Shown: positions 1 through 5,402 of the stretch, one piece after another
Layout: every line of letters begins with the position of its first letter
How positions within the stretch are numbered: position 1 is the stretch's first letter
NCBI GenBank assembly: GCA_947653505.1
Contig: CANTHI010000281.1
Span: 1-5,433, forward strand
Length of the DNA: 5,433 nucleotides
Source of the DNA: an uncultured Eubacterium sp.
GTDB lineage: Bacteria > Bacillota_A > Clostridia > Lachnospirales > Lachnospiraceae
Reading direction: 5' to 3'
Notes under the pieces: generated by a model
What the model saw: only the letters and a program-made list of their open reading frames with translations
Database searches by the model: none
What the model was told of the DNA's origin: nothing
Program-made: the position numbers and the translations under genes

Positions 1-72
1 TATTGAAACCTTTAAATCTTTATAAGACTTTTCCATCCAGGATTCCTGATACTGTCTATCCCAAATTTTCAT
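1..72 (-). CDS. Possible 5' end of an unrecognised protein, truncated by the window edge
   Basis: A leftward frame is open from base 129 to the window edge. Its first ATG is at 72 and gives 24 residues beginning MKIWDRQYQESW. The mix of W, D, E, Q and R is richer than expected from AT-rich noncoding DNA, which would mostly yield K, N, I and F. Against it, no convincing Shine-Dalgarno sequence precedes the ATG. A TTG at 123 in the same frame is an alternative start and also lacks one. The frame lies downstream of the predicted leftward promoter and small RNA, so it could be expressed by read-through. I do not recognise the family and 24 residues are too few to assign a function. It could equally be a decayed fragment. 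Confidence 0.3.
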   Translation of the reverse strand, partial: MKIWDRQYQESWMEKSYKDLKVSI

Positions 73-149
73 TTTGTAAAAAATATCTAATTCTTGATTT
101 CGTTTTTTGTTAATAATACACAAACCAAATCATTTTTTCTGAAATGGAA

Positions 150-248
150 ATGCAAAACCCGCCGATCCAAAAGAATCAACGGGTTTTACACCAATAAACT
201 ACTTTACAATTTGAGAAGATTTTGAACAACAAGTGCCCTCGCTGTTCG
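150..248 (-). ncRNA. Predicted ~100-nt structured small RNA with 3' terminator hairpin
   Basis: Read leftward from a start near 248, the transcript folds into two hairpins. The 5' hairpin pairs 247-238 with 233-224: ten contiguous pairs closing a GGCA loop. The 3' hairpin pairs 187-173 with 168-154: fifteen contiguous pairs closing a UUUU loop, ending in CGGGUUUU. Two pairs in the first stem and three in the second are G-U. Those positions become A-C mismatches in the opposite strand, so the structure belongs to leftward RNA. The linker (223-188) looks unpaired and includes a UCUUCUC stretch at 219-213 that could serve as a pairing seed. No ATG occurs in the transcript. The tail after the last stem is only UUUU, then GCAUUUCC, so termination may be partial. 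It could instead be a leader of the leftward reading frame. I do not recognise a known RNA family. Confidence 0.5.
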
Positions 249-254
249 ATATTT

Positions 255-283
255 ATTATAGCAATACTTTTGTATTTTGTAAA
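255..283 (-). promoter_or_regulatory. Leftward sigma-A-type promoter for the small RNA, with an operator-like repeat in the spacer
   Basis: On the minus strand, TTTACA (283-278) and TATAAT (260-255) are separated by exactly 17 bases, giving 5 of 6 and 6 of 6 matches to consensus. The expected start lies near 248, just before the first hairpin of the predicted RNA. The spacer contains the inverted repeat AATAC-TTTT-GTATT (263-276), in a position where a bound protein would block polymerase. Confidence 0.6.
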
Positions 284-487: not shown

Positions 488-521
488 AGTATTTTGATAC
501 TATTTTTACAAAATTTAAAGT
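488..521 (+). promoter_or_regulatory. Candidate xre promoter with overlapping inverted repeat
   Basis: The inverted repeat AGTAT-TTTG-ATACT (488-501) overlaps a TTGATA element (494-499) that matches a -35 box at 5 of 6 positions. A weak TAAAGT (516-521) follows after 16 bases. This would give a very short leader of about 14 bases. The pairing is tentative because the -10 box is poor. The repeat shares the 8-mer GTATTTTG followed by ATACT with the region of the leftward promoter (272-289), which suggests a common regulator, perhaps the XRE protein. Confidence 0.3.
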
Positions 522-541: not shown

Positions 542-862
542 ATGCTTGGCGAACGAATCAAAGAGCTGCGAATCGCGCACAATCTGAACCAGATCCAGCT
601 GGCAAATGCCCTCGGCGTCACCAAACAAAGTGTCAGCAATTGGGAAAATGACAATATTCTGCCCTCGGTAGATTTATTAAAACGAATTGCCCAGTATTTC
701 TGCTGTACTACGGATTATCTTCTGGAACTGGAAGAGGAAGGTGAACGGATCTATTTCGAAGTCAATGATCTGACCATCCAGCAGGCTGCTCATATCCAGC
801 GGCTCATTCATGATTTTCAGATTGTGAACCGCAGACTAAAGGAACCCCCGGAAAATAAATAG
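542..862 (+). CDS. Small XRE (Cro/CI) family transcriptional regulator
   Basis: This is a 106-residue DNA-binding protein. Residues about 5-60 form a typical HTH_3 domain: an RIKELR opening helix, then QIQLANALGVTKQSVSNWE, where the recognition helix and the SNWE ending are characteristic, then a closing helix ending in DYLLEL. The C-terminal 40 residues are charged, contain a short predicted helix (LTIQQAAHIQRLIHDF), and have no recognisable ligand or peptidase domain. The ATG start is fixed by AAAGGAG (529-535) six bases upstream. The gene is monocistronic, with its own terminator ten bases after the stop. Small regulators of this type usually act as dimers and often repress their own promoter. 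Related GTAT/ATAC repeats at 263-289 and 488-501 are plausible operators, but that link is an inference. The regulon is unknown, and nothing ties it directly to iron uptake. Confidence 0.9.
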   Translation: MLGERIKELRIAHNLNQIQLANALGVTKQSVSNWENDNILPSVDLLKRIAQYFCCTTDYLLELEEEGERIYFEVNDLTIQQAAHIQRLIHDFQIVNRRLKEPPENK

Positions 863-974: not shown

Positions 975-1199
975 ATGCTATTAAAAGATATCCAGACAGG
1001 CCAGAGCTGCATGGTAGAGCATATGAATCTGCCTTTCCAGATGGAGCGGCGGCTGGAAGCGCTTGGTATGACAAAAGAGTCTGTAATATCCGTGTTAAAC
1101 CGCAAAGGCAAAGGTATCATGATCATTAAGCTGCGAGGCACACGGTTTGCGCTTGGTTACAATATGACGAAAAATATTACAGTACGAAGACTGGGGTGA
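975..1199 (+). CDS. feoA: FeoA, ferrous iron transport accessory protein
   Basis: This 74-residue protein matches the usual FeoA length. It is a small SH3-like beta-barrel that acts in the cytoplasm with FeoB in Fe(II) import, probably by contacting or modulating the FeoB transporter. Family marks are the RRLEALGM segment (residues about 29-36, equivalent to the usual R-R-L-x-x-L-G-M/F) and the closing strands IIKLRGTRFALG and ITVRRLG. The ATG at 975 is chosen because AGGAGGTG ends seven bases before it. A longer in-frame extension back to 888 is rejected because it would run through the xre terminator and the promoter. The stop overlaps the feoB GTG start (GTGA), so the two genes are probably translationally coupled. 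Only one feoA is present; some clostridia carry two tandem copies. Confidence 0.93.
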   Translation: MLLKDIQTGQSCMVEHMNLPFQMERRLEALGMTKESVISVLNRKGKGIMIIKLRGTRFALGYNMTKNITVRRLG

Positions 1200-3244
1200 A
1201 TAACTTGAAAGAAAATTTAACAATTGGATTTATCGGCAACCCTAATTGCGGCAAAACGACTTTGTTTAACGCCTACACGGGCGCCAATTTAAAAGTCGCT
1301 AACTGGCCCGGCGTTACGGTGGAAAAAGTAGAGAGCGCCATCCGCGATCACGACCTGAATATCCGGCTCGTGGACCTGCCGGGCACCTATAGCCTGACTT
1401 CCTATACAATGGAAGAGACGGTATCCAGACAGTTTATTTTAAGCGATGAAGTGGATGTAATCATCAATGTGGCAGACGCTTCCTCTCTGGAACGGAACCT
1501 GTATCTGACACTGCAGATTCTGGAGCTTGGAAAGCCTGTAGTACTGGCGTTGAATATGATGGATATCGTACAAAAGCGCGGTATGGAAATCGATCTGCAC
1601 CGTCTGCCGGAGATGCTTGGCATCCCTGTGATTCCGGTCTCAGCCCGAAAGCGTACCGGACTGGATTCCCTGCTGCACGCGGCTGCCCACCATAAAGGGC
1701 AGGCAGATCCGGACAGTCTGATCCATCACCATAAAATATCCGCGCATCATGCACATGATCATCATGCCGAATTTGCAATGGTCTATTCAGACCAGATCGA
1801 AGATAAAATTGACCAGATTATTTCTGAACTGCAAAAAAAATATCCGGATATCAGCAATTACCGCTGGCATGCGATCAAATTGCTGGAGCACGATACGGAG
1901 GTTTCCCAGAAATATCCTGTGGATCTTCCGGATGTGCTGGATAAAAATTATGAATCACAGATTATCAATGAAAAATATGATTTTATCGGAGAAATTATCG
2001 ATGAAGTGCTGCTGCACAAAAAAAGGCAGGATCAGTTTACCGAACGGGTCGATCAGGCACTGACACACCGCATTTTCGGGATTCCCATTTTCCTTGGCAT
2101 TATGGCAGTCGTATTTTTTCTGACCTTTGCCGTCGGAGACTGGATCAAGGGTTATTTTGAAACTGCGATAGACTGGATTTCTTCCATGACGATACAGGGG
2201 CTCCGGGCCATGCATACAAGCGCTGTGCTGGAATCTCTCGTTGTGGAAGGCATTATTGCGGGTGTTGGCACGATCATTACCTTCCTGCCCAATATTTTTA
2301 TTTTGTTTCTGGCGCTTGCCTTTCTGGAAGACAGCGGATATATGGCACGTGTCGCCTATATTATGGAAGGACTCATGAGCCGTCTCGGATTATCCGGCAA
2401 AGCATTTATTCCGATGCTGCTCGGATTTGGCTGCACCGTTCCTGCCATTATGGCTTCCCGCGCGCTGGAAAGCAAAAGGGACCGTTACAAGGTCATGCTC
2501 GTAACTCCTTTTATGAGCTGCAACGCACGCCTGACGATTTATATTTTGTTTGCAGAAATGTTTTTCGGTAAATACGCGATGCCTGCCGCTTACTCGATGT
2601 ATCTGATCGGCATTGCTGTCGCGATTCTCGTATCATTCGTGCTGCACCTGATGGATCGTGAAAAAAGCGCAAATTATCTGCTGATTGAACTGCCGGAATA
2701 CAAAATGCCGGATGCGCGCACCGTCAGTATTTATGTATGGGATAAAGTCAAAGACTATCTGGGCAAAGCCGGTACAACAATCTTTCTTGCCACCCTTCTG
2801 ATCTGGATCCTGCTCAATTTCGGTCCGCACGGATACGCTCCGGATATGTCCGAAGGATTTGGCGCCATGCTCGGAAAGCTGCTCGTCCCTGTCTTTGCAC
2901 CAGTCGGACTCGGATTCTGGCAGATTGCTGTCGCACTAATCGCTGGTATCTCCGCAAAGGAAGTCGTCGTATCCAGCTGCGCCGTACTGTTTGGAATCGT
3001 AAATGCCAACTCCGCATCAGGAATGGCGGCCTTTTCCAATGTACTGCAAAGCATCGGATTTGGCCCGCTCAACGCCTTCTGCCTGATGGTATTCTGCCTG
3101 CTTTACGTCCCTTGCGCCGCCACGCTGGCTACGATACATAAAGAATCCGACAGCTGGGGCTGGACCGCTTTTGTAACTGTATTTCAGCTTGTCGTGGCAT
3201 GGGTCATTACTTTTATCGTCTACCGGATCGGCATGCTGCTCTAA
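1196..3244 (+). CDS. feoB: FeoB, GTP-dependent ferrous iron permease
   Basis: This 682-residue inner-membrane Fe(II) transporter has an N-terminal cytosolic G domain. All G motifs are intact: G1 GNPNCGKTT (14-22), G2 T41 in NWPGVT, G3 DLPG (60-63), G4 NMMD (120-123) and G5 SA (149-150). A histidine-rich insert (eight His in 177-190) follows, then a charged helical GDI-like region (about 195-285) and the membrane domain from about 295. Gate-type motifs include GCTVPA with C413, SCNAR with C442, GISAKE (584-589) and VPCAAT with C640. The length is somewhat below the 773 residues of E. coli FeoB. The GTG at 1196 overlaps the feoA stop. A TTG at 1205 is a serious alternative, since GGGGTGA (1193-1199) sits five bases before it and the protein would lose only three residues. 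No feoC or small Cys-rich Feo protein follows; a terminator comes at once. Confidence 0.97.
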   Translation: MNNLKENLTIGFIGNPNCGKTTLFNAYTGANLKVANWPGVTVEKVESAIRDHDLNIRLVDLPGTYSLTSYTMEETVSRQFILSDEVDVIINVADASSLERNLYLTLQILELGKPVVLALNMMDIVQKRGMEIDLHRLPEMLGIPVIPVSARKRTGLDSLLHAAAHHKGQADPDSLIHHHKISAHHAHDHHAEFAMVYSDQIEDKIDQIISELQKKYPDISNYRWHAIKLLEHDTEVSQKYPVDLPDVLDKNYESQIINEKYDFIGEIIDEVLLHKKRQDQFTERVDQALTHRIFGIPIFLGIMAVVFFLTFAVGDWIKGYFETAIDWISSMTIQGLRAMHTSAVLESLVVEGIIAGVGTIITFLPNIFILFLALAFLEDSGYMARVAYIMEGLMSRLGLSGKAFIPMLLGFGCTVPAIMASRALESKRDRYKVMLVTPFMSCNARLTIYILFAEMFFGKYAMPAAYSMYLIGIAVAILVSFVLHLMDREKSANYLLIELPEYKMPDARTVSIYVWDKVKDYLGKAGTTIFLATLLIWILLNFGPHGYAPDMSEGFGAMLGKLLVPVFAPVGLGFWQIAVALIAGISAKEVVVSSCAVLFGIVNANSASGMAAFSNVLQSIGFGPLNAFCLMVFCLLYVPCAATLATIHKESDSWGWTAFVTVFQLVVAWVITFIVYRIGMLL

Positions 3245-5181: not shown

Positions 5182-5228
5182 AACAGTATATAACAGTATA
5201 GAACTGTTGTCAACTGTTTTATACTGTT
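5182..5228. promoter_or_regulatory. Five-half-site operator array, probably bound by the GntR repressor
   Basis: Two AACAGT half-sites (starting at 5182 and 5192) are followed by three ACTGTT half-sites (starting at 5203, 5213 and 5223). Within each group the spacing is exactly ten bases, about one helical turn. AACAGTATA at 5182-5190 is the exact reverse complement of TATACTGTT at 5220-5228. The outer and the next pairs share one symmetry axis at 5205; the middle half-site is off axis. The array covers both promoter boxes of the operon. Confidence 0.75.
5185..5213 (-). promoter_or_regulatory. Promoter of the gntR-ABC operon
   Basis: On the minus strand a perfect TTGACA (5213-5208) lies 17 bases before TATACT (5190-5185), which matches the -10 consensus at 5 of 6 positions. 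The start is expected near 5178, giving a leader of about 20 bases. The boxes lie inside the phased half-site array, so this strong promoter should be silent when the repressor is bound. Confidence 0.85.
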
Positions 5229-5314: not shown

Positions 5315-5402
5315 TATTGGGGAACCGGGCACTGGGAGAGGGGAGCTGCACCATAGGCGCGGACTTAAGAGCAAATGCAACAATTTACATAAAAATGTTA
5401 TC
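5315..5402 (+). repeat. Repeat-like segment, copy B, with G-quadruplex motif
   Basis: This segment shares TATTGGGGAACC (5315-5326), CATAG (5352) and TACATAAAAATGTT (5386-5399), in order, with copy A at 375-466. Unlike copy A it has four G-runs (5319-5322, 5327-5329, 5334-5336, 5340-5343) separated by loops of four, four and three bases, a canonical G-quadruplex pattern on the plus strand. CTGGGAGAGG occurs at 5332 and again at 5420, and GCGCGGAC at 5357 and again at 5411, so another partial unit may begin at the window edge. No gene is seen in 5229-5433. Confidence 0.4.

Follow-up and report, generated by a model that had tools for sequence, protein, structure and literature searches.

The window, that is, the whole 5,433-nucleotide stretch of DNA analysed here, carries a leftward promoter which, as read from its bases, is an operator-promoter, a point missed by the preliminary description. 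An ATAC-N4-GTAT palindrome lies in its spacer beside a divergent gene for a small XRE-family repressor, the arrangement that marks a Lachnospiraceae-type operator-promoter module, and very probably it is this adjacent repressor that controls the promoter. The RNA read from it, plausibly a small RNA, is predicted to fold as two hairpins joined by an open linker, and there would be an even chance that the XRE-repressed promoter yields a short, terminated RNA as a free product. The features concerned are as follows, with (-) for leftward and (+) for rightward.

1..123 (-): left-open ORF past the hairpin, 41 codons from TTG, with an ATG at 69; possibly a gene
149..192 (-): hairpin resembling a terminator, with a core of 15 bp (154-187) that lengthens to 19-20 bp, UUUU loop, modest U-tract
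193..223 (-): linker of about 31 nt containing UCUUCUC, unpaired in both the MFE and centroid structures
224..247 (-): 10-bp hairpin at the 5′ end of the RNA, with a GGCA loop; transcription would start near 248
283..255 (-): promoter of the leftward RNA, -35 TTTACA (283-278), -10 TATAAT (260-255), 17-bp spacer
263..276: putative XRE operator 1, AATACTTTTGTATT, ATAC-N4-GTAT, within the promoter spacer
488..501: operator-like palindrome 2, AGTATTTTGATACT, GTAT-N4-ATAC (half-sites reversed in order), putatively bound by XRE
542..862 (+): gene for a small repressor of the XRE family (106 aa; Pfam HTH_3, 1.1e-14), running divergently from the leftward RNA
975-1199 (+): feoA
1196-3244 (+): feoB
after feoB, leftward: ABC permease, ABC ATPase and GntR regulator

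Promoter, palindromes and repressor

The consensus-promoter scan found the leftward promoter as first described, with five of six bases matching at the -35, all six at the -10 and 17-bp spacing, and in addition a TG preceding the -10. Its score of 11/12 is the window's best, tied with one other site. The window holds 11 promoter-like sites against 10.2 ± 3.5 in shuffles, so that the pattern alone is not unusual; that the promoter is real is better supported because the same operator-promoter adjoins XRE relatives in other genomes. Two palindromes of either half-site order are present in bases 1-541, with 0.03 expected in single-base shuffles, and the one at 488-501 overlaps a site that weakly resembles a promoter for the XRE gene (TTGATA-16-TAAAGT, 494-521 +).

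In the proposed working of the locus, the repressor would bind AATAC-N4-GTATT between the -35 and -10 and keep the leftward promoter off, and would also bind the palindrome at 488-501, limiting its own synthesis. With the repressor inactivated or scarce, a transcript would start near base 248, form the stable 5′ hairpin and mostly end at the terminator hairpin near 149, the product being an RNA of about 95-100 nt with its linker of about 31 nt exposed.

The XRE protein has 881 homologues at E ≤ 0.001 in the protein collection, the closest being 76-86% identical (P0002, P0003, P0005, P0007); its own cluster there represents 12 contigs, of which the longest has 11,178 bases. One relative was found in the viral contigs (L150, 49% over residues 1-60) and none in the PDB at E ≤ 1e-6. 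By eye, the small XRE family carries a DLTxxQxAHIQ tail.

The nearest described arrangement known to us may be that of DicA with dicBF/DicF in the E. coli Qin prophage, where a transcript that includes a small RNA is silenced by a short CI-like repressor, and where RNase E and RNase III release DicF from a polycistronic mRNA (PMC10448788). The two would be alike in having a short repressor which adjoins the promoter that it represses and a small RNA within the repressed transcript, but DicF is processed from mRNA whereas the RNA of the window would have a start site and a terminator to itself. The likeness would be one of layout and not of membership: the window repressor, which the NCBIfam DicA model matches weakly (E 3.4e-9, 36.6 bits where the cut-off is 101), is not DicA. 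None of the six window proteins scanned (XRE, FeoA and FeoB, the ABC transporter and GntR) resembles phage structural or lysis proteins.

The operator of PBSX Xre consists of ATAC...GTAT palindromes. Phage repressors of the RstR and PBSX-Xre types resemble the system in the window in combining a small XRE repressor, a divergent promoter and such palindromes. However, the XRE protein falls below the cut-off of the NCBIfam RstR model (56.7 of 80 bits), and in other genomes the window-type promoter has cellular genes among its targets, some of them surface-type. Among open-licence papers, matched by keyword only, nothing was found on an XRE, sRNA, Lachnospiraceae or PBSX link.

Recurrence of the operator-promoter in other genomes

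When bases 100-1200 were compared by BLAST with 397 genomes from a single family, feoA and the XRE gene were matched; there were also short promoter-region matches, which in some genomes adjoin a relative of the XRE gene. Other matches to about 250-315 (e.g. L084, L087) were set aside as AT-rich promoter-like sequence. XRE matches at E ≤ 1e-3 came from 28 sources, these being 27 of 92 loci and the window. With limits of E ≤ 1e-8 and a start within residue 8, and with identical start sequences merged, 18 distinct loci including the window were counted; L113 (38%, 4.5e-7) was left out by these limits, and L132/L133 and L082/L098 are near-copies.

ATAC-N4-GTAT lies at most 560 bp upstream of the repressor start in 11 of the 17 distinct loci other than the window, with the sequence of the site in one of these (L068) unlike the rest. 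L145 has the site with one change and was counted apart, and five loci lack it (L080, L063, L078, L082, L098). Since four of the 11 (L128/L070, L130/L071, L134/L079, L146) were recruited by the promoter match itself, the fair count is that among loci recruited via an XRE coding-sequence match, of which 7 of 13 have the site. The distance from operator to XRE start is 278 bases in the window and 45-141 in the 11 other site-bearing loci. Insertion may have spread the two apart in the window, as a partial copy of a dispersed repeat (320-366) lies within the additional DNA.

A 29-base pattern of the operator-promoter, allowing at most three mismatches, was searched for in 25 genomes chosen for their earlier matches. 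It gave 16 matches in eight of these and none in the other 17, while the reversed-pattern control gave none in all 25. Two of the matches (in G640 and at G197:C7, three mismatches each) look like chance. There were up to four matches per genome, one of the four in G197 being chance-like.

Aligned over 14 other places in 10 genomes, the promoters approximate to TTTACAAAATACnAAAGTATTGyTATAATgGAC. An XRE relative is present in the same locus in 10 of the 14 and absent from the L135, L136, L139 and L142 loci as examined; in L129 the XRE gene comes first and the promoter follows it, facing the same way. At all 14 an ORF of at least 60 aa starts within 250 bases, and 13 of these ORFs, starting 56-226 bases from the first base of the promoter, have a Shine-Dalgarno-like motif, the exception being the sortase ORF of L139. 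The downstream genes to which a likeness could be assigned, by Pfam unless stated, are:

L128: DnaJ/MORN protein
L132 and its near-copy L133: glycosyltransferase
L139: sortase
L131: BspA-type LRR protein
L077: WYL regulator
L142: HAD-like match under the cut-off
L134: zinc-ribbon-like, by eye
L135: NeuB-like start, by eye

The downstream genes of L129 and L130 have no Pfam match. The small XRE family seems, on these sequences, to head a small regulon including surface-type genes (L128-L142; G302, G312, G264, G254, G734, G278, G197). This points to a small XRE regulon with an operator-promoter recognisable in sequence, which elsewhere fronts several surface-polysaccharide and surface-protein genes.

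Folding of the leftward RNA and how it may end

As the preliminary description had it, the 5′ part of the leftward RNA forms a 10-bp hairpin with a GGCA loop and the 3′ part a 15-bp hairpin with a UUUU loop, the stem of the latter reaching 19-20 bp on folding. Over bases 150-250 the folding energy is -41.9 kcal/mol, compared with -19.6 ± 3.1 in shuffles (z -7.28; none of 200 as stable). Both hairpins fold well only in the leftward RNA, so that the strand specificity proposed earlier also stands: the energies are -42.5 leftward against -18.7 kcal/mol rightward over 146-249, -26.8 against -11.3 kcal/mol for the terminator hairpin (150-190) and -8.7 against -1.5 kcal/mol for the 5′ hairpin (222-245 as cut). 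The five G-U pairs reported earlier were likewise read from the sequence, two of them belonging to the 5′ hairpin and three to the 15-bp core.

When its stem is cut at CCCG/CGGG, the hairpin at 149..192 is left with the tail UUUUGCAU, a modest U-tract, and satisfies a terminator rule which allows such a cut. It is absent from the list of the window-wide terminator scan, probably because that scan took the whole stem and counted the Us as paired. The overall layout, in which an open linker separates the 5′ hairpin from a terminator-like one, counts in favour of a free RNA, while the modest U-tract and the absence from the scan count against it. By the one rule applied to the first 250 bases, the leader of the window contains a terminator and those of the 14 other places contain none, and the terminated unit would therefore be specific to the lineage of the window.

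The chief rival to a free RNA is that the XRE-controlled promoter serves a protein gene lying left of base 1, with the hairpin acting as attenuator within the 5′ leader of that gene, a reading which is possible though somewhat doubtful. It takes this place because the promoter serves protein genes elsewhere, by which a leader is favoured, and because the window ends 148 bases beyond the hairpin. The ORFs which follow all 14 other operator-promoters are in keeping with a leader, as is the left-open ORF (1..123 -), which begins 26 bases beyond the hairpin and is the only one visible downstream of the promoter. This ORF, however, has by eye no clear ribosome site and has no convincing homologue: it was without match in Pfam, NCBIfam and the phage and plasmid collections, and a weak match with an inner stop, in one of 280 genomes (E 0.005), was rejected. 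Folds of shortened leaders gave no alternative antiterminator pairing that stood out, and the lack of a terminator in the 14 other leaders also speaks against attenuation. Attenuation could be coupled to translation by a possible leader peptide of 17-18 codons, seen by eye, with a TTG at 232 or 229 behind GAGGG and a stop at 178-176 within the 5′ arm of the terminator; against this, the start is a TTG and the ribosome site sits inside the 5′ hairpin.

It is improbable that the hairpin at 149-192 is instead a bidirectional terminator ending a rightward gene left of the window, with the leftward RNA a functionless by-product and its 5′ hairpin incidental. The outline AAAACCCG...CGGGTTTT does resemble that of the hairpin following the XRE gene (868-910), the rightward strand still folds at the -11.3 kcal/mol given above, and the body of the RNA was not found in the other genomes searched. 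On the other side, the stem is 15 kcal/mol more stable in the leftward strand, strand specificity extends to the 5′ hairpin, and the promoter is the recurrent XRE-type one.

The remaining reading, a type I toxin-antitoxin pair in which the RNA is antisense to a small hydrophobic peptide read rightward (222-389, TTG behind GAGAAGA), is highly improbable and was rejected, for although the frame is open and hydrophobic near its start, that stretch is encoded by the AT-rich operator-promoter which elsewhere precedes protein genes, the start is a TTG, the scan shows no rightward promoter-like site before 222, and UCUUCUC complements GAGAAGA for no other reason than that the two are opposite strands of one set of base pairs.

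Relatives, targets and neighbouring elements of the window

No homologue of the body of the RNA was found by DNA searches of 397, 392 and again 397 genomes (both sets of 397 being one family draw), of 195 relatives of G219 or of three small genera (20, 4 and 5 genomes), all of these lying outside the window's own genus. Weak homologues could be missed by the large searches, as these score two candidates per genome. Several promoter matches extend into the first ten bases of the RNA, and a 75% match in G455 (87-156) touches only the far edge of its body. The preliminary description had named unconserved stems in related genomes as a ground against the RNA; the relatives that keep the promoter lack the stems, but they are distant, with XRE proteins 50-58% identical.

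A covariance model was built from the single window sequence (A1, the same stretch entered twice), so that it carries no covariation information and its E-values are rough. Among 38 sources it matched the window alone; two weak matches to the plus strand of that same sequence (E 0.04 and 0.1) were disregarded. In the genomes, 13 of 250 were matched at E ≤ 0.1 (best 1.8e-4). These loci were rejected as generic terminators because none of the 13 has ATAC-N4-GTAT or an XRE relative and because the terminator stem carries the match, the 5′ hairpin being shortened, missing or outside in the six alignments shown. Shorter matches were also discarded, namely an exact 20-mer at four loci in genome contigs with no wider likeness around them, a 17-mer at 53 loci in viral contigs, judged chance, and 20 alignments at E ≤ 0.01 from a BLAST of 101-320 against L001-L057, all of 18-27 bases and put down to chance.

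In the comparison with Rfam that had been proposed, the leftward RNA matched no family, with none near the site at E ≤ 1, and it would appear to belong to no known one; the sole match in the whole window at that threshold is sub-threshold and lies elsewhere (812-905). Trans-acting small RNAs of the Firmicutes such as FsrA and RsaE/RoxS consist of a 5′ hairpin, an open linker and a terminator. The RNA of the window shares this overall layout, and the promoter of its own that is expected of such RNAs is predicted in the form of a consensus, recurrent operator-promoter. It differs from them in having no Rfam match, no C-rich seed in its linker, as judged by eye, and no supported target in the window. 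It had been suggested that UCUUCUC pairs with ribosome binding sites; when the linker was compared with seven start regions of six window genes, the best pairing, with gntR, was equalled by 1.4% of single-base shuffles, which is unremarkable for seven trials, and the suggestion is without support within the window. The chances are about even that the leftward RNA persists as a free, stable molecule, which would then act by base pairing through its linker.

It is rather unlikely, but worth mentioning, that the XRE family of gut Lachnospiraceae controls surface genes (elsewhere the glycosyltransferase, sortase, NeuB-like and LRR genes) and that its divergent promoter has here been captured by a new trans-acting small RNA, by which the surface switch would gain a post-transcriptional arm in trans. 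If real, the RNA would be a small-RNA candidate whose regulator can be tested, from a gut family that has received little study; taken alone, with neither relatives nor targets, it is one of many such candidates.

As for the window itself, its feoB has best matches of 71-72% identity among 26 picked genomes belonging to the same family or order as G002 (Lachnospiraceae bacterium UBA5902, from which L004 comes), and on these matches the window looks Lachnospiraceae-type. A tRNA scan of the window found none, a near-match search of the plasmid collection with the whole window matched nothing, and neither did a distant-match search of the phage collection with bases 100-900.

The dispersed repeat of which 320-366, between the operator and the XRE gene, is a partial copy (GTTACTATTCACGGCCC-AGGGGCCGCTCATAGTAACGATTCGGGG...) is also found in L062, L064, L066, L067, L069, L075, L081, L083 and L086, and several of the genomes carry more than one copy. 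Judged by eye, the inverted start (like CCGTGAA..GTAAC) seems to close some of the copies, which would suit a MITE-like element. Both outer intergenic stretches contain ATTGGGGAACC (376-386 and 5316-5326), each time followed by G+C-rich sequence, and this is perhaps another dispersed element. An inverted repeat, AACAGTATAGAACTGTTG / CAACTGTTTTATACTGTT (5192-5228, 89% complementary), overlies a strong promoter-like site of the GntR-type gene (TTGACA-17-TATACT, 5213..5185) and is possibly that gene's own operator.
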